Shown here: positions 17,239 to 47,934 of the stretch, piece by piece
Position numbering within the stretch: position 1 is the stretch's first letter
Layout of the letters: every line of letters begins with the position of its first letter
Assembly (NCBI GenBank): GCA_030057555.1
Contig: JASGUU010000082.1
Coordinates: 1-52,486, forward strand
From: Bacillota bacterium
GTDB taxonomy: Bacteria > Bacillota > Clostridia > Saccharofermentanales > Fastidiosipilaceae
Direction of reading: 5' to 3'
Length of the DNA stretch: 52,486 bases
Program-made: the position numbers and the translations under genes
The notes under the pieces: generated by a model
What the model saw: only the letters and a program-made list of their open reading frames with translations
Database searches by the model: none
What the model was told of the DNA's origin: nothing

Positions 17239-18336
17239 ATGCGCACTTTTGACCCTTCAATGATCGAGATCGCCAGCTGGCGTCATGACCGGCTGCAGCC
17301 GGATGTCACCGGGCTTCTCGCCGTGCTGCGGCGTGAAGTGCCGGCCCGGCCGACGCTCTTTGAGTTTTTCCTGAACGACTCCATCTACGAGGCGCTTACG
17401 GCCGACCTGAACTACGACCGCTCCGATCCGCACTGGACCCATCTGCGCCTCGCAGACGCCTACCGCCGGCTCGGCTACGACTACATCACCGTGCAGACGC
17501 ATGACCTCGGCTTTCCCCATGCTCCCTCCGGGCGGCAGGGGCGCACCACCTCGCTGAACGCCCACATCGCCATCCGCAGCCATGGCGACGCGGATTCCTA
17601 TCCCTGGCCCGACTTTGCCAGCGCAGCCATGCCGCGGCTGGACCGCCTGCGCGCCTATATGGCACCCGGCATGGGTCTCCTCGTTCACGGTCCCGGCGGC
17701 GTCGAGGAGAACCTGTTCGATCTGCTGGGCTACGATCAGCTGTGTTACCTGACCGTCGACGATCCCTCGCTGATCGACCGCGTCAGCAGCGCCATCGGCG
17801 AGCGCCTGCTGGTCTACTACGAGCGGGCGGCGGCGCATCCGGCCGTCGACGCCCTGATCGTCAACGACGACTGGGGCTTCTCGGAACAGACCCTGCTCGC
17901 CCCGGCCGATCTGCGCCGCTGGATCATCCCCTGGCACCGCCGCATCGTGGCGGCGATCCACGCCGCCGGGAAGCCCGCGATTCTGCACTGCTGCGGCAAT
18001 CTCGCCGCGGTCATGGACGACATCATCGACGACATCGGCTATGACGCCAAGCACAGTTTCGAGGACAAGATCCAGCCGGTCGAAGAGGCCTACGAACGCT
18101 ATCACGACCGCATCGCCATTCTGGGCGGCATCGATGTCGACTTCCTCATCCGCCGCCCGCCCGGGGAGGTCTATGAGCGCGCCTGCCGCCTGCTCGAGCT
18201 GACGGCGGCGACCGGCGGCTACGCCCTCGGCAGCGGCAATTCCATTCCCGACTACGTCCCGCTGCCGCAGTACCTCGCTCTGGTGGCGGCCGCCGTGTTC
18301 AACCGCGCGGCGACGACAACGCCCGGACGCGCATGA
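17239..18336 (+). CDS. Uroporphyrinogen decarboxylase-fold protein (corrinoid methyltransferase-like)
   Basis: This 365-residue TIM-barrel protein belongs to the URO-D superfamily, whose anaerobe-specific members move methyl groups between corrinoids and thiols or folate. The HxC zinc motif of MtaA/CmuA-type enzymes is visible as LHCCGN (H250, C252). The third zinc cysteine of MtaA-like proteins is not obvious; the matching loop reads GSGNSIPDYVP. The family is clear but the substrate is not, and true haem-type decarboxylation is unlikely without the rest of a haem pathway. GGGAGGA precedes ATG 17239. The stop overlaps the next gene. A RACo-like activator lies at the end of the divergent operon, which strengthens a corrinoid link. 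Confidence 0.8.
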   Translation: MRTFDPSMIEIASWRHDRLQPDVTGLLAVLRREVPARPTLFEFFLNDSIYEALTADLNYDRSDPHWTHLRLADAYRRLGYDYITVQTHDLGFPHAPSGRQGRTTSLNAHIAIRSHGDADSYPWPDFASAAMPRLDRLRAYMAPGMGLLVHGPGGVEENLFDLLGYDQLCYLTVDDPSLIDRVSSAIGERLLVYYERAAAHPAVDALIVNDDWGFSEQTLLAPADLRRWIIPWHRRIVAAIHAAGKPAILHCCGNLAAVMDDIIDDIGYDAKHSFEDKIQPVEEAYERYHDRIAILGGIDVDFLIRRPPGEVYERACRLLELTAATGGYALGSGNSIPDYVPLPQYLALVAAAVFNRAATTTPGRA

Positions 18337-33112: not shown

Positions 33113-33640
33113 CTGCTTCATTTGCTCATGCCTTTCCACAAATCTCTCGTAGACCAGCCGCGCAAATTCCAGCATGGGCTCCTCTTCCAGCGGTACCATG
33201 ACTCCAGCCTTTTTTGGGCGGATCACACCAGTCGATGAGCGAGATGTAGACCTCCCCGTCATTCAGTTCACGCCGCATCGTCTCGGACTCATACATGGCG
33301 GGACTTCCTTCATCATCTATGATAACGATCATGTCGAAATGCTCTTCCAGCTCTGCGATCTTGAAGAGATCGACGGCTCCGGGCAGATCCAATGGATCTC
33401 CGGCTGCCTTCTTTTCATCCACGATCTTCCCAGGACCAGACAGGAGAGAAACGAGGTCAGGATCCGACGAGGGCAGAGGATCTTTCCAGTCGGCGGGAAC
33501 ATTGATCTTAACGCGGTATTGCTCCGGGATTCCTGCCTGTAAGTCCTCAGTCTGATCGCTTTCCAGTTGCTCCGGCACCGTCTCTTCGCTTTCCTGTTCC
33601 GAAGCGGACGCTGCCATCTCGATCGTGACCACTGTCTCCC
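33113..33640 (-). pseudogene. Ruined copy of the cassette lipoprotein gene (X')
   Basis: This is a degraded paralogue of the intact gene at 34284-35093. The shared stretch includes LQAGIPEQYRVKINVPADW versus FQAGVPEAYRLKINVPAGW, and further on VDLFKIAELEEHFDM versus VDLFTIEELEAFFDM. It has lost its signal peptide, about 70-80 internal codons, and its frame: an indel in an A6 tract at 33211-33216 puts the matching C-terminus (EEEPMLEFARLVYERFVER) in another frame. Its front is joined to the pseudogene before it by a deletion. Confidence 0.85.
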
Positions 33641-34181
33641 TTTATACAGTCCACCATGATTTCCTCGTTGTAGAGCTCGAAGGAAAGGTCAACATCATGG
33701 ATATACACCCGGAACTTGTCCAGCACCCGGTCGCCGACCATGCTTTCCCGGGGATAGTTCTCCAGATCTTGCGCCTCCTCATATTCGATCTGTTCACCGG
33801 GCCTGACAAAGACGAGGCCCTGGCCGGAAACCCGATCAGGCCCTCTGCATAGCTCTCGAACACGAACATAACCCCGAGGCTGAGATCTATATCCGGGCAC
33901 AGGGTATCCGGCCTGCCAATGTCTTCATGTCCGGGCGTAAAACTGCCTTCACCGTTGAAGAACTGATGTGTGTTGTACATGCTGAACTCGCCGTACGCGA
34001 ATTCCAGCATCCAGTTCGTATCCTGCTCCGTTGTCACGTTGATGATTCACGTGCCTTCATAATTGGACAGATCGCCACTGAAGAGATCGGGTTGAGACTG
34101 GGCGGCGGCAGTAGTGTATACGGATACTGACATGAGAAGTATCGCCAGCCAGGCGGCCGAATCCGGCTTCTGACAGAGCAC
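33641..34181 (-). pseudogene. Ruined copy of the cassette secreted-protein gene (Y')
   Basis: This is a degraded paralogue of the intact gene at 35090-35950. The signal peptide region (LAILLMSVSVYTTAAAQ) and SGDLSNYEGT are readable, then a TGA at 34047-34049 stands where the intact copy has the Trp of EGTWIIN. A one-base loss near 33832 shifts the frame between EGLIG and VSGQGLVFVRPG. The last about 100 codons are deleted, and the sequence runs straight into the X' remnant after EEIMVDCIKG. Upstream of about 34181 the match fades. Confidence 0.85.
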
Positions 34182-34283: not shown

Positions 34284-35093
34284 TCAGGGAGCCTGACCCA
34301 TTCTCTCCATCAGGCGTTCGTAAACATGCCGCGCCAGTTCCAGCATGGGCTCTTCGTCCATGTGTTCCGGCATCCCGCCCTCCGGAGGCTTAAACTTCGC
34401 GGAGATGCTCAGCAGCACGGAATCAGCCACCAGGATAAAGACCGAGTTCCATTCCGTGAACAGCGCGTGTTCTCCCAGATCCTCAATTTCGCGCGGCTCG
34501 GAGGCAATCATCGTCATATACGTCAAGGCACTGAGCCGGTCGCCGCAATCCTGCAGCGCGAGCTCAAGCTTTCCATCCCAGAACGCAGGTTTTGACGCGT
34601 CCGTTCGATATATGAGATACAGCTCTTTGTCACGGTTCCCTATGACGATATTGCGACCTTCTTCACTCAGAACAACCGTCATGTCAAAAAAGGCTTCCAG
34701 TTCTTCAATCGTGAAAAGGTCGACGACCCTGGGCAGCTTGACCGGCTCCCTGTCAGCCTGCTGCTGCTCATCGATGATCTTGCCAACGCCAAACAAAGGT
34801 GAGACGAAGTCCTCGCCAGCCGAGGGCAGTGGATCGTTCCAGCCGGCGGGCACGTTGATCTTCAGGCGGTATGCCTCGGGAACGCCCGCCTGAAAGTCAT
34901 CTGTCTGCCGGCTTTCCGGGTGTTCCGCAGCGGGTGCCGTGGTGCCGATTCTGCCTGTTGTTGACTCCGAAGCGGCTTTTGTTCCTGGAGAAATCGTTTC
35001 AACGATAGTCCCTTTGCTTTTCCTGCCGGCAGAACAGTCGCTCAGGCCGATGAGGATGAACAGTGAAAGGACCAGTGAGAGTGCTCTTTTCAT
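34284..35093 (-). CDS. Secreted lipoprotein-like protein, unknown family (cassette gene X)
   Basis: This 269-residue protein has a signal peptide (about 1-20) with a lipobox-like LSDC; Asp just before the Cys is unusual, so lipidation is uncertain. A Thr/Ser-rich linker (about 25-65) leads to a domain of about 200 residues with no family I recognise. Its start overlaps the stop of the upstream cassette gene (ATGA), so both are made together. A decayed copy of the pair follows directly, so the cassette was duplicated in tandem. It is likely an outer-surface protein made together with its neighbour. Confidence 0.75.
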   Translation of the reverse strand: MKRALSLVLSLFILIGLSDCSAGRKSKGTIVETISPGTKAASESTTGRIGTTAPAAEHPESRQTDDFQAGVPEAYRLKINVPAGWNDPLPSAGEDFVSPLFGVGKIIDEQQQADREPVKLPRVVDLFTIEELEAFFDMTVVLSEEGRNIVIGNRDKELYLIYRTDASKPAFWDGKLELALQDCGDRLSALTYMTMIASEPREIEDLGEHALFTEWNSVFILVADSVLLSISAKFKPPEGGMPEHMDEEPMLELARHVYERLMERMGQAP

Positions 35094-35950
35094 GCCTCGT
35101 CGCCTCCTTTTACCTGATCTACACTCGTGATCCGCTTAAAGCTGAACCAGACGAACAAATCGACGGGTCCGTCAGGAATGGGAAATACCTCGATGATCAA
35201 CTCTTCTTCCAGGCCCTGCTGCCTGCCGGCGGGCAGAACCGTTGTCAGATATCTGTTGACATAGGGCACTATCGGCTCCGGGGCTTCAAAATACATGCGG
35301 CCGCGGCCCAGATTCATGTAGCGGGCAACCGGGATACGCGCTTCCAGCTTCTCGGAGATCTGATATATAATTCCGTCCTCGAAACTGATGATCAGGCGAT
35401 TATCTCCCGTTATGCTGCCCGCCATGATGTCCTCGTTGGTGAGCTCAATGAGAAAGTTGAAGTCGAGCATATACACACAGAGCGCGTCCAGCACCCAGTC
35501 GCCGACCATGCGTTCTTTGGGGTAGTTTTCCAGCTCTTCCGCCTCGGAAAATTCGATATGGTTGCCGGGCCTGACAAAGACAAAACCCTGCCCGGAAACA
35601 TCGATCAGGCCACCTGCATAATTCTCAAGCACGATCTCAATCCCCAGATCGGGATCGAAATCCAGCCAAAGCGTATCCGGCCTGTCAAAATCCTCATGTC
35701 CGGGCGTAAAGACGACATCACCTTTGAAGTCCTGATGTTCATTGTGCAGATGGTACTTGCCACCGGAGATTTCCAGCGTCCAGCTCGAGTCCTCCTCCGT
35801 TGTCCCATTGATGATCCATGTACCTTCGTAATTGCCCAGATCCCCGCTGTAGGGATCCGGATGCGACTGGGCAGCGGGTGTTTCGTGTACAGCCAGCGGC
35901 ACCAGCAAAACCGCCAGCAGGACGGCGAGAAGCTTCATCTTTTTCTTCAT
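35090..35950 (-). CDS. Secreted protein, unknown family (cassette gene Y)
   Basis: This 286-residue protein has a classic signal peptide (MKKKMKLLAVLLAVLL, cleavage after about PAA) and a beta-rich mature part with NYEGTWIING, TPGHEDFDRPDTL and VSGQGFVFVRPG. No family was recognised; a lipocalin-like barrel is possible but unproven. ATG 35950 is chosen with AAAGGAG 11 bases upstream. It is the first gene of the cassette, divergent from the giant surface-protein gene, with which it shares a repeated upstream sequence. The stop overlaps gene X. Confidence 0.75.
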   Translation of the reverse strand: MKKKMKLLAVLLAVLLVPLAVHETPAAQSHPDPYSGDLGNYEGTWIINGTTEEDSSWTLEISGGKYHLHNEHQDFKGDVVFTPGHEDFDRPDTLWLDFDPDLGIEIVLENYAGGLIDVSGQGFVFVRPGNHIEFSEAEELENYPKERMVGDWVLDALCVYMLDFNFLIELTNEDIMAGSITGDNRLIISFEDGIIYQISEKLEARIPVARYMNLGRGRMYFEAPEPIVPYVNRYLTTVLPAGRQQGLEEELIIEVFPIPDGPVDLFVWFSFKRITSVDQVKGGDEA

Positions 35951-36094
35951 GGCATCAGGAACTCCTTTCTGTCTGCGGTGTAACTGGCTGCCGCGTCTGC
36001 CTCCCGACGGACTGCTGTTCACAGGCTGCTCTGCCGCCCCCATCTGGACGTTGACATGAGCCAGGCTTCTGCTCAGAATCTTAGTGAACAGGTC

Positions 36095-36242
36095 GTTAAA
36101 CAGGCGTGAAATACGCATCGCTTATTGGGAAACATCAACAAACAATCACCACTGCCAGGCCGAAAGACCGACGCAGGCACCTGGTGCCTCGAAAAACGAC
36201 CGTATTTTAGGCAGGCGCCGCCGTATTTCACGCTTATTTAAC
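36095..36242. promoter_or_regulatory. Inverted 21-bp upstream elements of two divergent genes
   Basis: The sequence CGTATTTCACGC(C/T)T(G/A)TTTAAC occurs at 36095-36115 (minus strand) and 36222-36242 (plus strand), 19 of 21 bases identical. Each copy points toward its own gene: 145 bp before cassette gene Y and 190 bp before the giant gene. Weaker similarity continues for about 20 bases beyond each. A half copy, CGTATTTTA, lies at 36201. It could be a shared operator or a duplicated promoter. Confidence 0.7.
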
Positions 36243-36432
36243 AGGTTCAGGACTAGGGTGTTGCCAAACTGCGGCATTCTGCGGCATCTGATCACAGAGA
36301 AGTCAGCGAAACAACATTGAAGCGAAGGTCCCGGAACACTATCAGCTTATCTCCACAAACCGTCTGTCAAGAGCAATCAGGGGTTGCGAGAAACATTTCG
36401 AAGCCCTGAAACAGAAGATTCGGAGGCAGGAA

Positions 36433-39400
36433 ATGAAGAAATCAGATTCACGGAAGACAGCTTCGGGCAACCCGTTCAGGACCAGACCGGTCCTAAGCTG
36501 GCTGATCACCTCCACGGTCATCGTTGTTCTCGTCGCGGGCAGCATCCTCACCCACAGACTCCTGAACCGCGAAGAACCGGATGAGTCCAGGCCGGAACAG
36601 AGCAGCTCCACTACCCACGAAGAACCGGTAGTGCCGGTAGTGCCGGATGACCCGAATCTGGATCAGAGCGGGTTTACCTACCTGCCCGATCGTGAGTACG
36701 TGCTCGGCGCCACCGAAGAGGAGAGGCCCCAGACATTAAACGATCTGCTCTACAGTCAGAGCCCCGACATCGAGGATTTTCTGCGCAACCCCAATATTGC
36801 CGAGGAGCTTCTCGCAGCCGAAAGTCTCACGGACATCGTCGACTCGCGCTACTCCCTCAACAATCTCAGAGAGATAGGCAGACAGCTCGAAGAGCGTACG
36901 GAGGAAGAGGATCTGCCCATGGGCGATCTGGTGACGGTGCGCGCGACTCCCATTGAAGCGCCGGTCAGAGAGAAGCCGCCGGGGCCGGAAGACGAACTGC
37001 GGCAGTTCATGCCGCCGCCCGCCCCCGTGGAGGAGAGGGACCCGCTGCCCAAGTCCGAGGGCGCGAGGAGACTCGACGAGGCAGCTGAATCCATCGACAT
37101 GAGCCGTCCCGCCGAGGCCAGTCAGGTGCTCGATGTCTATGCCGGCCAGCAGGACATACTCGGCGAGCTGCATCAAAAGGTTGACTATCTGCTCGATGAT
37201 GTCGAGTACGGTGACTGGGAACGCATGCCCTCCTCCATCAACATGAAGGGCATCTGGCAGAACCCTGGAGAAGCGCTGATTCACATGATTCCGGAGGCGG
37301 ACTGGCTCCCGGAGGAAGGCTACAGCATTTACAGACAGATCGGCAACGAGAGGGAGCTGATCGCTCAGCAGCAGGCAGCCGCGACGACAGTTATGAGTGG
37401 CGACTTCAGTCACCCCGATGCGGGCGATATCCAGAATGTCTATGAAGCCGCCGAGTACAGCGCGGACTCAGAGGCTGCGATGGGCATGGATGAAGAGTCC
37501 TTTAATGACACGGTCTATCAGACCCGCCCCTCGCTTCGACCCCTGGAGCACATGGGAGGCGAGAGGGACTTCCTCCTCATGAGGCAGATGCAGGTTACCA
37601 TTCCGGACGGACTGGAGCAGAAAATCCCCGAGAGCGATCGTGCTCTGAACTCTCCCGTCCAGCTGATGAATCACCCGGAGAACGGCCGTTACGAGGCGGG
37701 TGCCATACGTTCACAGGTCTGGGAGCGTTTCTCCGTGCAGCAGTCGTCGCTTCCCAGCGGCATCCAGACGATAGCAGGAACGGGCGGCACGGAGAATGCC
37801 TCTTATAAAGCGGCCGCCACGACGCTCGGAGCCCGCCAGCAGATCTCCACGCTGGCCTTTGTCGATGATGAGTTCGCCGAGGAGGCCGGCTTCCTGATCC
37901 GTGACAATATCGCCGAAAAAAAGCTGCCTGACGGCGAGCCCATCACATATATCATCGAGGCTCCCGGAGGACAAAGTGCCAGAGTGGAGCTGCACTGGGG
38001 AGAGGAGCTGAAACTCACCAAACCGGAAGGTTTTCTTGGCTACGGACTGGATGGAAAAGTCTTCCTGCGCTGGCGCAAACCTGCCAGCGAGGCCGAGGGC
38101 CGCATCATCAGCGGCTACTTTATCGAACGCAAGCTCGAGGGCGAAGACAAATTCACCACTGTCAATGATAAGCCGGTGGTCATCGCCGAAGTCCTTGATA
38201 AGACGGGTGTGTTCTGTGAGACACCTGTGATGTATCAGGAGAAGCTGGAGAACGGAACGAAGGCCGAGTACCGCCTCTACTCCATCGATATATTCGGCAG
38301 GCGCAGCGAGTGCTGTGCCCCGATCAAGATCCGGGTGGAAAAGGTCACTCCTCCCGATGCCCCCACGACCGCCTCTCTGGTCCTCTCCACGGACGAAACG
38401 CCACCTTCGGATGATACGGTCGGCCAGGCCATACAGGAAGCTCTGGCCAAAAACAGCGGCAAAGAGGGCATCGTCATTCCCATCTTTAATGAATCTCCCG
38501 ACACGGTCCGCTTCACCCTCTATCGGGCGGAGAAGGTTGGAGTGGGCTCCTACGGCAAACCGGTGCCGCTGGCAAACTTCCATTTTGACAACCCCAAAAA
38601 AAGCGAGGAAGGAGGCAAGGAAGGCACCCTGCCGGGCACCGTTCCTCCTGAGCTGCTGGACGAGGTGGCGGGAGGGGCGGTCGCTTCCCAGGGAGACGCG
38701 CCTCCTGTGGTCGACGAGCCCGCGCAGTATGAATCAGGGGCGCTCCATGAGGCCTTCCAGCTCTTCCTGGCGAGCAATGCATCCAGGGCACCGGACATGA
38801 TCTACTTCGATGCGAATGTAAAGAAGGGAGTGACATATAAGTACTGGGTCTCCGCCTGGGACTCCTGGAACAACGAAAGTGCCTGGTCCAAGTCCGCCGC
38901 CATCGGCGTGCCGTCCGATGTCGAGCCAACCGTTCCCGCCGCGCTTACCATCTCCATGATGGCCAGAAAGCTGCCTGACTACTCCGTCCTGCCGCCCGGC
39001 CTCGTCATTGACGAGAATGTGTCGGAAACGGACGTGGAGGAGAACTGGTCGGGTTCGGAAAGAGCCAGTGCGGAAAACACTTCGCTCGTTGAAATGGCGG
39101 ATAATTCCGGTGCCACAGTCGGAGTGTACCTCGGAGAAGGCGGGTCACCCGTGATTCTGACACGCTTTTTCGACAATCTCCCGGAACAGAAATATATCCA
39201 TGTATTTCTGGGCGTGCAGGGAAAGGATGTTCTTCCGGATGGCTCGACGCGCCTCAGGTGGCCCGCCTACAGCGGCGACGATCTGGGGGGCTATGTTGTC
39301 TATCAGCTGGTCGGGAAGTCGCCACAGCTGGAACAGCTGGCCACGACAGACCGCGACCAGCTGCTGGCAATGGGTCAATGGACCAAACTGACGGAAAAAC

Positions 39401-42400
39401 CCCTGGAGCAGAATCTGTACCTCATCCAGGGACTGGAACCGGGAGGTGACGGAGTCGACGTCTTCCTCATCTGTCTGGAGCCGGCAGCCACGGAGGGCAG
39501 TCCGGAGGAGGGCGAATCGGAGGACGGCAGCCCGGAGGAGGGCGAGTCAGAGGAGGGCGAACCGGAGGACGGCGAATCGGAGGAGGACGGCGGGTTCAAG
39601 CCAATACCCGTGAGAACCAGCAACGACAATCCCATCAACAACAACCCCGAGGGCGGCTACGTGCTCCTGGAATGGGAGGAACCGGAGGATCTGCAGGTCA
39701 AGTACTACCGCATCTACCGCAGCGAAGTGAAAAACTTCAAAAAGCCAATCGACGAGTCGACACTTGAATGGACCATGGTAAAAGATCTGGCCTTCGGCAC
39801 ACAGTATGCGGATCCCGTTGAGCAGAGCCACGCCCATTATTACTATTATAAGATCACGGCTGTCTCCCCCTGGGGCGTCGAGTCGGGCGCAGGCACGGTG
39901 CAGAAATTCCGCGTGCCCTCGACGAAGCCGCCGCAGACGCCGAACCTCCTGCTGCCGCTGTCACGGAAAGACGGCGTCGCGGTCAACTTCTCATCCGTGG
40001 AGTACTGCTGCCGCTATGAAGTCTACCGCGCCGAGATTCCCAAGATCACGGCAGAGACACTGAGAAATATAGATCCTGCCATCCTGGAGACGGTCTTTGC
40101 CACACCCACGGTAACGGACGAATTTCTCACGCAGTTCCTGGCGGAAGGGACGGCCAGGGCACAGTCCGGCTCGGGTCAGGAGATCAATCCCCTGCTGGGT
40201 TTCAAGACCGTGAACCTCTCAGAAACGGATGCTCTCACCGAGGAGCTTTCAGATGTGGATGTCGCACTGCGCCAGAGAGTCTTCTCCGAACTGATTCATA
40301 CGCTGGGACCTCTGGCTGTCTCCGATTACCGGGACCTGAGCGAACAGATGATGGCACTCGTAGGCTGGGAGAAGGTCGGCGAACTCCCCGTGGATGAGGA
40401 TACCCAAGAAGAGGTCGATCCGCAGACGGGACTGAAGAAGCCGCTGCAGATCATCGACTATAACGCCAAATACGGAACGCACTATCTCTATACAGTACAG
40501 GCCTGGAACGATGACGAGCTGGGTTCGACGAAGCCGGAGCCGATAGAGGCAACACCGCGGCGCAACCGTCCCTTTGACCCGATCGACGGGCTGGCTTTTA
40601 CCATCACGTATGGCGATAATCCGTCGATCAACCTGACATGGAACAAACCGCATATGGAAGGGCTGACCGAAGAACAGTGTCTGGAGGACACGGTCGGCTA
40701 TATCGTCTACTACTGCACCGAAAAGGACGGCGTCTATGTCCAGGCGAGCCCCCTGCTCTTCTCTACTCTCTGGCGCGACTACACAACCGACCGGGCGGCC
40801 ACCAACTGGTACAAGGTACGGGTGCTTGACACCGGTGGTTATCTGAGCGACTTCTCGGAGCCGATTCTGGCCCGGGAGGATGTGACCATCGAGCTTCCCA
40901 GAACGCAAATTCCTGACGGAGTCCGCATGGAGCGGCCCCAACTCTCCATGGATCCTCTGTACCACACGAACCAGCAGGACCTCGGCATGCCCATCCCGTT
41001 TGAGGTGACGGGAGACGAACCTTTAGAATTCATCCTCGAAGCCGTGGACGACGACGGGAATCTGGTGTCCGAGATCACGCTCCTCGAAGAGGCCCGTCTG
41101 GTCGATGTGCACCCTCATCTTGGGATCGGGCACTACACGGTGACACTCGTCGCAAGCAACATGGCCGGAGCCGATGAGCTTGTGTTCGAAGTAGAAATCA
41201 CCGAAAGGCTCGACCCGCCAGCCCTGTATATGGATGAAGAGAGCTTTATATTCGACGAGGGCTTTGACCAGTGGATCTGGTATACCGTCACCGGCAGCGA
41301 GCCGATCACCCTTGAAGTAAGCGCCTGGCACAGCGACAGTCAGAGCGAAGCCGACATGTATATCGATGAATGGAACAACGTGGTTGTGGTTCCGGGCAGC
41401 CTGAGCCCAGGCGACTATATCGTGACGCTGACAGCGACCAACGCGGTAGGACAGGCAGAGCTGGTATTCGATGTCATCATCATCGAAGAATGGGGAGAAC
41501 CCCCCGATATCATGATTGAAGACACACAGCCCAGATTCATGACGGGCTATGTGGAAGATATCCCCTTTACTATCAGCGGCAGCGAGCCGATCACCTATGA
41601 CTTATATGTAGAGGACTATGCCGGCGAGTCTGTGACGCACCTGTTCTCTGTCGATGAATGGGAGCAGAAAATCATCGTTGACAGGGATATTGTGTATGGC
41701 ACTTACGAGGGCACCATTACCGCCAGCAACAAATGGGGGTGGGATGAGGAGCACTTCTCACTTTACATCTACCGTCCTCCGCTTAAAGCACCCGACGACA
41801 ACACGAGCCTCGTCTCATTCACCGTTGAACCGGAACCTGTGCCTTCCCGGGTCATGGCTCCTGGGGACCGGCCAGCCAGACGGGCGGGAGGCACCTCCGA
41901 GCCATTACCGGAAGACACCTACACCAGTGATTCCGGCATCTTTTCGTACTACACCCTCAAAAACATCGTTCTGGTGAATCCCGCGCCTCACCTGGTTCAC
42001 ACGAAAGTCCCTTATATGGGGACTGCGGATCTGATCTTCGGAGATCCCGACACCGGGCAGGTTCTCCCGGTACAGATCGCCGGTGCCGAGTTTGCCGAGG
42101 AAGGTGACATCACCGTGTTCACCGCCGGCATCCTCTATGTCGACAAACCGTACAAACTCGAAGAAATCGGCGTCACCATCAGCTCCCTGTACATCCCCTT
42201 CACTGATATGGGAATGGCCAGCGGCTATGTCCAGAACGCCGATCCCAGCAAAAACCTGATCGGCAACCTTACCGGATTCATCTTCGTCGACGCGCCCTTC
42301 CGCGAACCCTCCAAGCTCTACATCGGCTTGCCGGCGGGCAGGCAGAGCGTGCTCCCGCCGGTCCGCATCGACCGGCTCACGCTGGACAGAGTCTCTTCCA

Positions 42401-45246
42401 TCGAGCTGCATCTGGACAGGAACGGGGAGTCGGAGGATGTGCTCTCCCTGATCACGGAAGCGACACTGAAGGCACCCCTGGAAACCCTCAACAACGAGGC
42501 TCTGAAGATGAGCTCTCTGGGTCTCGCCTGTGATGCCCATGGACGCATCACCGGCAGGCTGGACATGGTTGATTCTCCCGACGGACAGTTCCTGCAGCTG
42601 CTGGTCCCGGGTGGAGCCGGCCTGAGGGTGAAGGCCAGCATCGTCTATAAAAAGGGCGTTCCCACCGACGAAGGCTTCATCCAGGGCAGGATCATTCTCC
42701 CCTTTGAGCAGTCCGACTATATGGGACCGGGTGTTCCGGCGAGCTATGCACAGACCCACAGCACGGTCAACACCATGGACTACATCATGAATCCCAACTA
42801 CGACAAGGATAAACATGATGACAAGACCACGACCAGGTACTACATCAAGTTCGGCGAGACGGTACAGAAAAACGGTCTTCTGATCGTTCCTGCGGATCCG
42901 GAAATGCAGAAGAACTGTGCCTTCGCGGAATTCAACGTGACCAACTGGAAGGGGGAGGGCTTCCTGGTCGATTCAGCCCAGCTCACACCGGTGCGCGTGA
43001 CGGAGCGCAGCCTCAGCTCCAAGGACCAGCGCGACCAGGCCATCGTCGTGACAGCCAGTGAGATCAGCATCGACCTCGACCGCAATGACTTTTTCGCGAA
43101 ATCTGAAGGAACCGAGACGCCCCGGGAGACCGAGAAGCCGTTCTGGGTCGGCATGGTCTTCAAGGGCGGATTCCTGACACTGCCGCCGGCGTTTATCGAG
43201 ACGACGGATGGCAGCCCCATACAGTTCAAGCTGGCTGCAGGCGAGATGATCTATGACCTCAACGGCTTCAACTACCAGACATACATGTATAACGATGATG
43301 GGGTTGACGCCAGATTCGGCGAACGGCTCGGCGGCTTCACGCAGGTGAAAGTCTTCGACTGTCTGCTCGACATGTATGCCAACAAGGTCAATCTCGAGAT
43401 CAATGCCAAGGTGGCCCTGGAACTGTTCAACAACAACTGGGTCAATGTGAAGCTCTACACCAACAAGGAGGACAATGCGGACGGGGCTGCCGGTCAGCTT
43501 CTCTGCTCCGTCGCAGAAACAGTCATCGAAGACTTCGTGGGCCTCGGCACCACCCTCACCATTGACGGTGGCTTCCTGAAGCCGGAAGGCATGCGCTTCG
43601 GTGGATCGGTGGACCTGACAACACCGGAAATCCAGCTGAAGGAGCCGATGAAATTCACGAGCATGGTGGTTCCGGCGAAAAAGACGGACACGTTCGCAGC
43701 CAACAACTCCAAGAAAGTGCATGGCTGGGCTACCCTCGACAAGACCTGCCCTGTCCACATGCAGGGCTTCTCGCTGGATATCCGCGAAATCAACTTTGAA
43801 TACCTCGCCGCCAGCGCCACTCCCGGCACGGCGACCAGACTCTCGCTCTGGGGTTCGGTGCTTCTCTCGGAGGATATTGCACTGGGCTCGGACACCACGG
43901 ACTGCATCGCGGTCGATACGCTCAAGGGAACGGAGCTGGAACTGCCGGTTGTGATCTATGACAAGTCGTATTCGATACTCGAAACCAGCTTCGACGAGTG
44001 CATTGATGTCAAGGGCAGGCTGGTACCCAAACGTGTGGCGGAGGCCGAGACGCAGAACTGGCCGGATCAGCCCGTCATGCTGGCGGCAGGAATCTACCCG
44101 CCCAGGCTGCAGGCCGTCGAGCAGGCTCAGGGAGTCGAGGACCAGCTCGGGAAGATCGAGCAGGGCCTGATCGAATTCGAAACGGAGAATCTGGAACTGG
44201 GCTTCCTTGGCAGCCTGGGCGAGCTGCCGATCGACACGATTACCCGCTTCGGCTATGACGTGGACAATGCCCGCGGCTATTTCGCCATCGGTCTGCTGCA
44301 GAAGGGCAAAGATAATAAGCTGGATGTAGGCATCGGCTCCCTGAGCGACTTTTCCGGCCTGGTTGTCAACAACATGGTTGTCGAGCGCAACAAGCAAAAT
44401 CAACTGGTCTTCCCGGCGGAGAAAAGCGCGATGAAGCAGCTCATTTCCGGCATGGAGGTGGATCGGGGACCGGATGGGAAGTTTGCCGCCGGCATCAGGG
44501 GAACGATGGAAATCGCAAAAATCTGCGAGGTGCGCAAGCTCTACTTCGGCTTCGAGAATGGTCCCCTGGTGGAAGCGTCCGGAGGACTCTTTCTGCCGCT
44601 TGACGTCGAGGCGATGATCGGCGGAGACGGCTACAGACATGTGGGCGATGTGGCGATCCTGTACAGCCATCCCGAGCGCTACTTCTCCTTCAACATGACC
44701 CTCAACGAGCTCGACGTGATCGCGATCAAACTCAGCGGCTCCCTGGGCTTCGAGTTCAGCCCCAAGCTCTTCGGAGTCTATATTGGCTATCCCGAAACGC
44801 TCGCCGGCAACGTGAGCATCTACCGCGTCGGCCTGGGACTGGGCTTCCGCATCTCGGATGACGGTGCCAACATCATCAAGGGGAAGATCGAATTCGGCTT
44901 CGAGCGCAGTGTGGACGTGTCGATCGTATACCTGCGGGGCTTCCTCTATGCAGGTGCAGACGGCGGCTACTACGCCAACATTGACTTGAATAATGACGGT
45001 AAACCTGATGGCAACAAGTTCATCCTCACGCTCTATCTGAAAGGAGGCCTGGAGGGCGGTATCAAGGTGGCGGGAAAACGCTATAACATCATCAGCTTCT
45101 ATCTCGATGCCAAAGGAACCATCGAGTCGATACCGCCGAAGAACGACTGGAAACTGACCTGTTCGGCGGAAGTGTCCTACAGCCTCAATCTATTCCTCTT
45201 CTCGGTCAGCGGTTCCGTCTCGGCCAGCTTTGACACCACGTTCTAG
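36433..45246 (+). CDS. Giant membrane-anchored modular surface protein, 2937 residues
   Basis: A single membrane segment lies near the N-terminus (about 23-39), then a Pro/Glu-rich linker. Residues 75-535 have no recognised fold. Fibronectin-III-like modules follow at about 537-640, 680-825, 919-1016, 1070-1156, 1165-1375 and 1381-1480, some with long inserts. An acidic SPEEGESEDG-type repeat is at 1021-1054. Three Ig-like (He_PIG-type) modules sit at about 1517-1592, 1598-1686 and 1693-1781, with TGSEPIT and TATNAVG signatures. Residues about 1840-2937 are beta-rich and unknown, with a Ca2+-loop-like DLNNDGKPDG near 2860 and a C-terminal Phe. No LPXTG sorting signal or S-layer domain is seen. 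Function is unknown: adhesin, scaffold or wall-spanning fibre. A terminator follows. Confidence 0.85.
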   Translation: MKKSDSRKTASGNPFRTRPVLSWLITSTVIVVLVAGSILTHRLLNREEPDESRPEQSSSTTHEEPVVPVVPDDPNLDQSGFTYLPDREYVLGATEEERPQTLNDLLYSQSPDIEDFLRNPNIAEELLAAESLTDIVDSRYSLNNLREIGRQLEERTEEEDLPMGDLVTVRATPIEAPVREKPPGPEDELRQFMPPPAPVEERDPLPKSEGARRLDEAAESIDMSRPAEASQVLDVYAGQQDILGELHQKVDYLLDDVEYGDWERMPSSINMKGIWQNPGEALIHMIPEADWLPEEGYSIYRQIGNERELIAQQQAAATTVMSGDFSHPDAGDIQNVYEAAEYSADSEAAMGMDEESFNDTVYQTRPSLRPLEHMGGERDFLLMRQMQVTIPDGLEQKIPESDRALNSPVQLMNHPENGRYEAGAIRSQVWERFSVQQSSLPSGIQTIAGTGGTENASYKAAATTLGARQQISTLAFVDDEFAEEAGFLIRDNIAEKKLPDGEPITYIIEAPGGQSARVELHWGEELKLTKPEGFLGYGLDGKVFLRWRKPASEAEGRIISGYFIERKLEGEDKFTTVNDKPVVIAEVLDKTGVFCETPVMYQEKLENGTKAEYRLYSIDIFGRRSECCAPIKIRVEKVTPPDAPTTASLVLSTDETPPSDDTVGQAIQEALAKNSGKEGIVIPIFNESPDTVRFTLYRAEKVGVGSYGKPVPLANFHFDNPKKSEEGGKEGTLPGTVPPELLDEVAGGAVASQGDAPPVVDEPAQYESGALHEAFQLFLASNASRAPDMIYFDANVKKGVTYKYWVSAWDSWNNESAWSKSAAIGVPSDVEPTVPAALTISMMARKLPDYSVLPPGLVIDENVSETDVEENWSGSERASAENTSLVEMADNSGATVGVYLGEGGSPVILTRFFDNLPEQKYIHVFLGVQGKDVLPDGSTRLRWPAYSGDDLGGYVVYQLVGKSPQLEQLATTDRDQLLAMGQWTKLTEKPLEQNLYLIQGLEPGGDGVDVFLICLEPAATEGSPEEGESEDGSPEEGESEEGEPEDGESEEDGGFKPIPVRTSNDNPINNNPEGGYVLLEWEEPEDLQVKYYRIYRSEVKNFKKPIDESTLEWTMVKDLAFGTQYADPVEQSHAHYYYYKITAVSPWGVESGAGTVQKFRVPSTKPPQTPNLLLPLSRKDGVAVNFSSVEYCCRYEVYRAEIPKITAETLRNIDPAILETVFATPTVTDEFLTQFLAEGTARAQSGSGQEINPLLGFKTVNLSETDALTEELSDVDVALRQRVFSELIHTLGPLAVSDYRDLSEQMMALVGWEKVGELPVDEDTQEEVDPQTGLKKPLQIIDYNAKYGTHYLYTVQAWNDDELGSTKPEPIEATPRRNRPFDPIDGLAFTITYGDNPSINLTWNKPHMEGLTEEQCLEDTVGYIVYYCTEKDGVYVQASPLLFSTLWRDYTTDRAATNWYKVRVLDTGGYLSDFSEPILAREDVTIELPRTQIPDGVRMERPQLSMDPLYHTNQQDLGMPIPFEVTGDEPLEFILEAVDDDGNLVSEITLLEEARLVDVHPHLGIGHYTVTLVASNMAGADELVFEVEITERLDPPALYMDEESFIFDEGFDQWIWYTVTGSEPITLEVSAWHSDSQSEADMYIDEWNNVVVVPGSLSPGDYIVTLTATNAVGQAELVFDVIIIEEWGEPPDIMIEDTQPRFMTGYVEDIPFTISGSEPITYDLYVEDYAGESVTHLFSVDEWEQKIIVDRDIVYGTYEGTITASNKWGWDEEHFSLYIYRPPLKAPDDNTSLVSFTVEPEPVPSRVMAPGDRPARRAGGTSEPLPEDTYTSDSGIFSYYTLKNIVLVNPAPHLVHTKVPYMGTADLIFGDPDTGQVLPVQIAGAEFAEEGDITVFTAGILYVDKPYKLEEIGVTISSLYIPFTDMGMASGYVQNADPSKNLIGNLTGFIFVDAPFREPSKLYIGLPAGRQSVLPPVRIDRLTLDRVSSIELHLDRNGESEDVLSLITEATLKAPLETLNNEALKMSSLGLACDAHGRITGRLDMVDSPDGQFLQLLVPGGAGLRVKASIVYKKGVPTDEGFIQGRIILPFEQSDYMGPGVPASYAQTHSTVNTMDYIMNPNYDKDKHDDKTTTRYYIKFGETVQKNGLLIVPADPEMQKNCAFAEFNVTNWKGEGFLVDSAQLTPVRVTERSLSSKDQRDQAIVVTASEISIDLDRNDFFAKSEGTETPRETEKPFWVGMVFKGGFLTLPPAFIETTDGSPIQFKLAAGEMIYDLNGFNYQTYMYNDDGVDARFGERLGGFTQVKVFDCLLDMYANKVNLEINAKVALELFNNNWVNVKLYTNKEDNADGAAGQLLCSVAETVIEDFVGLGTTLTIDGGFLKPEGMRFGGSVDLTTPEIQLKEPMKFTSMVVPAKKTDTFAANNSKKVHGWATLDKTCPVHMQGFSLDIREINFEYLAASATPGTATRLSLWGSVLLSEDIALGSDTTDCIAVDTLKGTELELPVVIYDKSYSILETSFDECIDVKGRLVPKRVAEAETQNWPDQPVMLAAGIYPPRLQAVEQAQGVEDQLGKIEQGLIEFETENLELGFLGSLGELPIDTITRFGYDVDNARGYFAIGLLQKGKDNKLDVGIGSLSDFSGLVVNNMVVERNKQNQLVFPAEKSAMKQLISGMEVDRGPDGKFAAGIRGTMEIAKICEVRKLYFGFENGPLVEASGGLFLPLDVEAMIGGDGYRHVGDVAILYSHPERYFSFNMTLNELDVIAIKLSGSLGFEFSPKLFGVYIGYPETLAGNVSIYRVGLGLGFRISDDGANIIKGKIEFGFERSVDVSIVYLRGFLYAGADGGYYANIDLNNDGKPDGNKFILTLYLKGGLEGGIKVAGKRYNIISFYLDAKGTIESIPPKNDWKLTCSAEVSYSLNLFLFSVSGSVSASFDTTF

Positions 45247-46671: not shown

Positions 46672-47004
46672 GGATAACCTCCTGAAAGTGGATTGAGCGG
46701 TTACCAGAGGAAAACCGTACAGTGAAAGTATCTGCCGCTTTTTTCGCGCTGTAAACAGCCAGATGCGTTGATTTTTTCGGGGCAGTGACACGCTTCCGGT
46801 CGCTCCCGGGAACCACAACAACCGGATGCCTGTCCTGCGAGTCAGAGCCTCCCCCGGCCAAATTCATGGACGTATGGCGACGCTCACTGTCTGCCTGGTG
46901 GCTGGAAAACATGGGTTTGCATAACAATTCATCGTGCGCCTGCCAGCAGCCGGGCATATTTCACTTTCACTTCAGTGGCTGCAGACGCACGGTCCAGTTC
47001 AGAT
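46672..47004. other. Gap upstream of the secreted protein
   Basis: No gene seen. A segment at about 46748-46767 (GCTGTAAACAGCCAGATGCG) weakly resembles the element at 36095 when read on the minus strand. The rest looks like non-coding DNA. Confidence 0.3.
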
Positions 47005-47030
47005 GGCGGGGCCGGTCAGGAGGCCCCGCC
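47005..47030 (-). terminator. GC-rich hairpin after the surface-protein pseudogene
   Basis: GGCGGGGCC pairs with GGCCCCGCC around an eight-base loop, six bases after the old stop codon at 47036-47038 on the minus strand. It has no U-tract. It probably was the terminator of the pseudogene. Confidence 0.5.
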
Positions 47031-47035
47031 AGAAT

Positions 47036-47780
47036 CTATTGAATGCGGGTATAGACGTATTCGTGGCCATTTTCCGACAGCTCCTTTTCGTCTCGCCGGG
47101 CGCCTGACGGCAGATGATATAGCCATCCGCAAACTCCGCCGCTGTCCAGCTGACTGTGACGGATGTGGGATTCCCCCTTGCCTTCAGATTCGTGACGGCG
47201 CGGGGCGCTCTGGCGAAGACGCAGACGTACGCATCACTGTCTCCGGGGCTGATTCCTTCTCCATACAGAAAATATGGATAGACACGGTAGAAACAGCAGC
47301 CGTCCTCATAGACCGTATCCACATAGTCTGTGCCGCTCACATTGTAAAGGCCTCAGGTGATTGTGATCCTGTTCTCATCGGCGCCTGCCTTGAGATTCCT
47401 CACGGGCTGCGGCAGGAAAAGCATATGCTCAGGATCGCCAGAACAGTAAGATGCGATCTTTGCGACAGACGATGTGTCAACTGCTACTGCACCGTCATAG
47501 TTCTCAAAGCTTTCCATATCGCTGGAAGTCGACATTCTGGCCCGTACCTGCATAACTCGTGATGGTTCCCGTCGCTGCATCAAAGAGGAAATCACCTGCT
47601 GGTGAGTATCGTGATCCTGTACCGTCCCTTGTAGAGGATGGCGCAAAGTCCGCCTCCTGTACGTCTGTCAGGTCCGTGCCGAATTATCCACCACATCTTC
47701 CGTTTCGGGTTCCCGGGTGACCGGTTCACTGTCATTCCCCGTATCGCCGGCCTCTTCATCATCGAAAGCGGACTGTTAAA
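47036..47780 (-). pseudogene. Decayed BspA-like / fibronectin-III surface protein
   Basis: The minus strand shows, in order, an acidic linker (DDEEAGDTGNDSEPVTREPE), a segment FLFDAATGTITSYAG typical of the stretch that leads into BspA-type leucine-rich repeats, and two fibronectin-III starts (PVRNLKAGADENRITIT and AVTNLKARGNPTSVTVSW). The last ends HEYVYTRIQ and a TAG. Lesions: frameshifts near 47673, 47520 and 47090, and a TGA at 47353-47355 where the second module has its Trp. The 5' end of the gene cannot be placed. Confidence 0.75.
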
Positions 47781-47934
47781 CAAACTTGAAATCATGCGCA
47801 CCTATACAGAAAAGAGGTAACAGGCCCCTGGCTTTCATGCATATCCAACAGGAAACAGGGTCTCTCGCCCCTCACGGCGGCCAGCGGAACACCACGCTCC
47901 GGCAGGCAGTCGGATAACAGGCGTGCCCTCTGAT

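Follow-up and report, generated by a model that had tools for sequence, protein, structure and literature searches.

Two copies of a 21-bp word that stand upstream of divergent genes in a member of the Fastidiosipilaceae are most likely response-regulator-type boxes of two promoters, which belong to one regulon of giant secreted-protein genes. The conserved unit was found to be a 17-bp tandem hexamer, TTTMAC-N5-TTTAAC, with its hexamers 11 bp apart and a variable middle; a -10-like TAnnnT lies 10 or 11 bases downstream of it. The uncultured lineage thereby gains a predicted regulon with boxes, -10 elements, a candidate regulator and target genes; a single signal may induce several very large secreted proteins of the family jointly, and the 17-bp unit provides a search key for more such genes in related metagenome bins.

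Two boxes between divergent genes

The stretch of DNA analyzed here (the window; contig JASGUU010000082.1, 52,486 nucleotides) belongs to a genome of 2.9 Mb in 90 contigs that is 96% complete (G000). The features considered are the following:

36095..36111, minus strand: box A, TTTCAC-GCCTG-TTTAAC, upstream of the secreted cassette; the arm of the original prediction extends to 36115
36078..36083, minus strand: -10-like hexamer TAAGAT, 11 bases past box A; match to the consensus only
36226..36242, plus strand: box B, TTTCAC-GCTTA-TTTAAC, upstream of the giant gene; the arm of the original prediction begins at 36222
36254..36259, plus strand: -10-like hexamer TAGGGT, 11 bases past box B; poor match to TATAAT at positions 3-5
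47775..47791, minus strand: one-mismatch box, TTTCAA-GTTTG-TTTAAC, preceding a stretch that by eye looks decayed; no TA at offset 10 or 11
35090..35950, minus strand: secreted cassette gene 1, 286 aa; start moved from 36118; signal peptide by eye
34284..35093, minus strand: secreted cassette gene 2, 269 aa; lipoprotein-like N-terminus by eye
36433..45246, plus strand: giant protein gene, 2937 aa; N-terminal hydrophobic segment by eye; weak PKD match

As had been predicted, the word forms an inverted pair with arms at 36095-36115 (minus) and 36222-36242 (plus), which have the same orientation relative to their genes, agree at 19 of 21 bases and lie 106 bp apart; the weaker likeness proposed to continue beyond the arms was not recovered, the repeat between them ending at 21 bp. 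A repeat search of positions 35900-36500 returned this inverted repeat only (21 nt, 90% complementary, arms 106 nt apart), and a search of the window seeded with exact 7-mers, which some pairs may escape, found no second inverted pair with at least 18 of 21 bases alike within about 230 bp. With up to three mismatches allowed, the 21-bp pattern matched twice in the window, as compared to 0.00 matches expected from 100 shuffles, and twice in the 2.9-Mb genome, with no match for the reversed pattern; the genome-wide search that had been suggested for the 21-mer thus recovered the two window copies and no third one. A TAnnnT hexamer recurs 11 bases past each copy (36254-36259, plus; 36083-36078, minus).

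A minus-strand open reading frame beginning at ATG 36118 would place the word inside a coding frame. In the sister species (G001) and in G026, the homologous proteins align to this frame from residue 49 only, hence ATG 35950 is the likely start, and the ribosome-binding end of the cassette leader is conserved and fits this position. The copy that contains box A lies 144 bp upstream of ATG 35950 and the copy that contains box B 190 bp upstream of ATG 36433, so that with the better fitting start both copies lie upstream of genes. The likeness of the arms might instead be due to a coding peptide, RISRLFN, shared by the N-termini of two proteins, as the minus frame that opens at ATG 36118 runs through the word without a stop, and RISRLFN is also read in the matching frame of the plus copy. 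This is extremely improbable: the plus frame stops after 34 residues, the homology of the minus protein begins at residue 49, and in G001 the box lies outside the orthologous open reading frame (17326-18225).

Neither cassette protein had a family match, including Pfam and NCBIfam, and the PKD match of the giant protein scored 24.7 bits at a cut-off of 23.5. As to structured RNA in the leaders, no Rfam family reached its gathering score in the window. Downstream of the cassette, at 33631-34157 on the minus strand, lie two fragments of a disrupted paralogue of the 286-aa protein, which are 50% and 57% identical to it and contain one in-frame TGA.

Conservation and gene association of the box

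Contig C196 of the sister species keeps the divergent pair, namely a 2940-aa giant (89% identical) and a 299-aa orthologue of the cassette protein, and carries the word in both directions, as TTTCACGCTTTTTTAAC before the giant and as ATTCACGCTTATTTAAC before the small gene. The box TTTCAC-GCTTT-TTTAAC before the giant is the counterpart of box B, and ATTCAC-GCTTA-TTTAAC before the cassette orthologue is that of box A. When all 17-mers of the intergenic regions of both species were compared, the highest agreement in either orientation (16/17) was that of the boxes; 15/17 was attained elsewhere only at the ribosome-binding end of the cassette leader, and ten base shuffles never gave more than 15/17. 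The remainder of the intergenic region is largely diverged, and the core between the arms measures 106 bp as compared to 110 bp in the sister species.

Within the genus, WTTCACGYYTDTTTAAC was found with zero or one mismatch at eight sites in G000 and G001: the four sites of the divergent pairs, G000:C76:18024, G001:C6:12790, G001:C6:26738 and the window site at 47775-47791 (minus). The boxes at C76:18024 and C6:12790 precede homologous giants that are 54-55% identical, and the box at C6:26738 precedes the gene of a 1168-aa protein. On contig C6 of G001, each box leads a run of genes for related secreted proteins (1139 and 600 aa after 12790; 1168, 652 and 555 aa after 26738) with gaps of 124-155 bp, and these runs are presumably operons. 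The five proteins (L018:5156-8575 and L050:730-10370) share C-terminal repeats; the 600- and 652-aa members have LRR_4 and InlB-type matches, with LRR_4 over the cut-off only in the 652-aa one, and the 1168-aa member has a SpaA match. The stretch behind the one-mismatch box of the window (47000-47791, minus) appears by eye to be a decayed fibronectin-type secreted protein, and tblastn with the giants detected no match in it.

Beyond the genus, a first pattern, TTTMAC-N5-TTTMAC-N10/11-TAnnnT, which had been fixed on the first genus, was run on 12 genomes of the family and gave 10 matches as compared to 2 for the reversed pattern, both of the latter in G009. Five of the matches are in the first genus, four are new and located in G003 and G010, which represent another genus, and one is in G006, where it falls within a coding frame of the opposite strand and is regarded as a chance match. 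Each of the four boxes in G003 and G010 precedes a very large protein gene with a signal-like N-terminus, the open frames of which run off their contigs, and the encoded giants are 35-39% identical to that of the window over 804-1737 aligned positions; the four sites appear to form two orthologous pairs and hence do not count as four separate events. A refined pattern, settled once the first matches were known, was run on 188 genomes of the order and gave nine matches in four genomes, eight before giants and one before the linked secreted cassette, and none when reversed. It misses three boxes of the first genus, namely those at C76 (-10 hexamer TATATA), at C196 on the plus strand (ATTCAC) and at 47775.

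Taken together, 11 of the 12 tabulated boxes precede giant or linked secreted-protein genes, and the remaining one (47775-47791) precedes the stretch that by eye looks decayed. This is not the scatter over random places that would have spoken against the original prediction, and joint control of the divergent genes, one of the readings put forward there, is well supported by the sequence comparisons, as both the sister species and a second genus retain boxes before giant or linked secreted-protein genes.

Giant homologues are also carried by four genomes from other families of the order (G055, G177, G030 and G183). No box with up to two mismatches was found in the upstream sequence at hand of the homologues in G177, G030 and G183, and the approximately 220 bp upstream of the G055 homologue contain no recognisable box, with one unconvincing word at three mismatches. 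Since these homologues are without the box, it goes with this bacterial family and not with the giant-protein family everywhere. As for homologues of the cassette protein, no upstream box with up to two mismatches was found in G026, and the homologue in G016 is located at a contig end. The G055 giant (G055:C4:1-14646; L184, L197) is 72% identical to that of the window (633-residue query) and lies in a genome of another family, for which horizontal transfer and a mis-binned contig are both possible.

The distribution of the boxes also bears on the remaining readings of the original prediction. A recombinase might flip the 106-bp core between the arms, which as inverted repeats of 21 nt with 19 of 21 bases alike have the form of an invertible segment. 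The 12 boxes comprise four in two divergent pairs, seven intact single ones and the box at 47775. All seven intact single boxes are without an opposite arm within 400 bp (best words at 3-4 mismatches; for C117 and C170 the contig ends before 400 bp), and the 47775 box is also without an opposite-strand partner. Moreover, the arms share little beyond the box, and the sister species keeps both arms while the core is largely diverged. The cores of the two species have a longest common word of 9 bp when compared in the same orientation and of 8 bp when one core is inverted, which may count as weak evidence against flipping. Inversion is thus highly improbable.

A local inverted duplication of a promoter, with the likeness of the arms as mere descent, would be in line with the fact that in G000 the likeness of the arms extends over four more bases, CGTA, on the 5' side of the box. 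In G001, by contrast, the flanking bases differ between the arms, the same box stands singly before other giants, and unconstrained descent does not account for conservation amid a diverged remainder. Mere descent is therefore quite unlikely as an explanation. The duplicated promoter of the original prediction is possible as an origin, in which case it would be compatible with two boxes of one regulon, but it was not retained as a separate function.

Proposed promoter architecture and known regulator sites

The second hexamer reads TTTAAC in all 12 tabulated boxes and the first one TTTMAC in ten, while TA is found at offset 10 or 11 in 11 boxes and the complete TAnnnT in ten. The half-sites are direct repeats that recur after roughly one turn of the helix (10-11 bp), as expected of promoters activated by regulators of the OmpR/PhoB family, and the -10-like element follows about 10 bases downstream without need of a good -35 region, as in CiaR promoters. 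Each downstream offset of the eight genus sites was scored with an approximate matrix of the TATAAT type. The best mean -10 score was obtained at offset 11, with the hexamer at 11 in five sites and at 10 in three, and the best offset score was reached by 5 of 2000 shuffles, whereby orthologous pairs among the eight sites are not independent.

Based on these features, we propose that the two copies serve as activator boxes, each for a separate promoter. TTTMAC and TTTAAC, one helical turn apart, would be occupied head to tail by two subunits of a response regulator of the OmpR/PhoB family, so that the box would replace the -35 region and the -10-like hexamer would begin after 10 or 11 bases. 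A partner sensor kinase, which perhaps watches the envelope, would phosphorylate the regulator, and the phosphorylated regulator would subsequently bind both boxes and recruit RNA polymerase to the two divergent promoters. Expression of the secreted cassette would thus coincide with that of the giant protein, and the same regulator would serve more giant-protein genes elsewhere in the genome.

Alternatively, the 17-bp word might be the upstream determinant of an alternative sigma factor, e.g., an ECF sigma factor, with no response regulator involved, as a long conserved word at a near-fixed distance from a second element is also typical of a sigma promoter. We regard this as unlikely, as the word consists of a pair of similar hexamers at a distance of 11 bp around a variable centre, the element downstream is an ordinary TAnnnT, and regulator and kinase genes are linked to boxes. 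Two further candidates were considered and rejected. Sigma-54 promoters have GG and GC as hallmarks, and both are absent from the word. Integron attC-like ends, which we take to be defined by GTTRRRY-like words, were dismissed because by eye the outer words of this kind stand in the wrong order.

Direct-repeat sites of similar design are described for four known regulators. In streptococci, the promoters of the OmpR/PhoB-type regulator CiaR contain a TTTAAG-N5-TTTAAG direct repeat with the -10 element at distance ten from the last hexamer (PMC3091779). This layout is the same as that of the box reported here, whereas the CiaR half-site ends in G and that of the box in C, and the CiaR targets treated there are small RNA genes (PMC3091779), as compared to very large secreted-protein genes as predicted targets here. 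KdpE, also of the OmpR/PhoB family, recognizes a direct repeat of two AT-rich half-sites of 6 bp, TTTATA and TTTACA, with 5 bp between them; these half-sites are similar to the box but end in TA or CA instead of AC, and the target, a potassium pump operon, is unlike those of the box (PMC3264566). SaeR binds GTTAAN6GTTAA, which resembles the box as a direct repeat with an 11-bp period at secreted and surface-protein genes; its half-site is the complement of TTAAC, and the box-linked operon is not SaePQRS-like (PMC5083920). The pho box of PhoB has two direct repeats for a regulator dimer and is usually near the -10 element in E. coli, like the box, but consists of 7-bp repeats, each followed by a 4-bp A/T-rich stretch, and has other letters (PMC4971064). 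String searches of the literature, with most subscription journals outside their reach, for half-site strings such as TTTAAC-N5-TTTAAC, TTTCAC-N5-TTTAAC and TTTMAC returned only unrelated work; within this scope the half-site, the regulon and its targets appear to be undescribed, while the kind of system is well known.

The candidate regulator and other words in the genus

Linkage of a box to two-component genes was observed outside the window locus, where no regulator with receiver and winged-helix domains is linked. On G000:C76 the order is OmpR-type response regulator, histidine kinase, LiaF-like gene, LiaG-like gene, box and giant, and on G001:C6 it is regulator, kinase (split over two open reading frames), box and 1168-aa giant. 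The regulators of both loci are 82% identical; that of C6 has Response_reg and Trans_reg_C matches and that of C76 a Trans_reg_C match over the cut-off, and the closest solved structure by sequence is RegX3 (2oqr). Both loci probably derive from one ancestral locus and do not represent two independent cases. The G001 kinase (L050:10915-12501) is split into 327 and 198 aa, either by a real break or by an assembly error, as compared to one open reading frame of 514 aa in G000.

From this linkage, the OmpR-type protein encoded at G000:C76:13602-14285 is the likeliest controller of the box, although the linkage is no proof, as G000 has 12 matches to the OmpR-type DNA-binding domain. The presence of the regulator alone says little, since 31 of 38 relatives contain homologues at E <=1e-60. 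The best homologue of the second genus (54-55%) is accompanied by a kinase and sits apart from the box genes. Seven homologues, three of them from genomes without boxes, share the recognition-helix region RTVDSHIxRLRxKL, which is therefore compatible with the proposal but not diagnostic. A search upstream of the regulator operon itself gave no good box: G000 has none at up to two mismatches, and G001 has a one-mismatch word without a -10 element at C6:29938.

The accessory genes at C76 resemble LiaF and LiaG in likeness only and do not qualify the locus as a Lia-type envelope stress operon, the scores being 33.9 bits for LiaF_C_term (cut-off 57) and 48.6 bits for LiaG (cut-off 285). LiaR is a regulator of the LuxR type. 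It is conceivable, albeit tentative, that a small dedicated regulon exists in an undescribed Bacillota family, in which an envelope-sensing two-component system with LiaF/LiaG-like accessories and an OmpR-type regulator would activate a set of giant secreted proteins via a box with a half-site of its own (TTTMAC-N5-TTTAAC), the box being kept with the giant across two genera while the protein goes down to about 37% identity.

Further members of the regulon were also sought. With up to one mismatch, TTTMACNNNNNTTTMAC matched 26 times in G000 (18 reversed) and 72 times in G001 (73 reversed), and as the reversed counts are similar, these matches are mostly chance. They were examined in part of the loci, words with TTTTGAC being dropped. 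One match, at G000:C12:5039 (L058), is followed by TAnnnT at offset 11. No TAnnnT stands at offsets 9-12 of C85:20589, which is the fourth exact match in G000. At two mismatches, most G001 matches to WTTCACGYYTDTTTAAC are of a different word type, TTTCACGnnnTTTTGAC, which at the two loci examined (L030 and L047) belongs to a 71-bp tandem repeat (GGTCAAAACAGCGTG...TTTGACCAC; L047:1499-2219 and L030:1288-1643). Its likeness to the first half of the box would be due to chance or composition. A single word of this kind is located at G000:C71:3540, and such words occur on many further G001 contigs.
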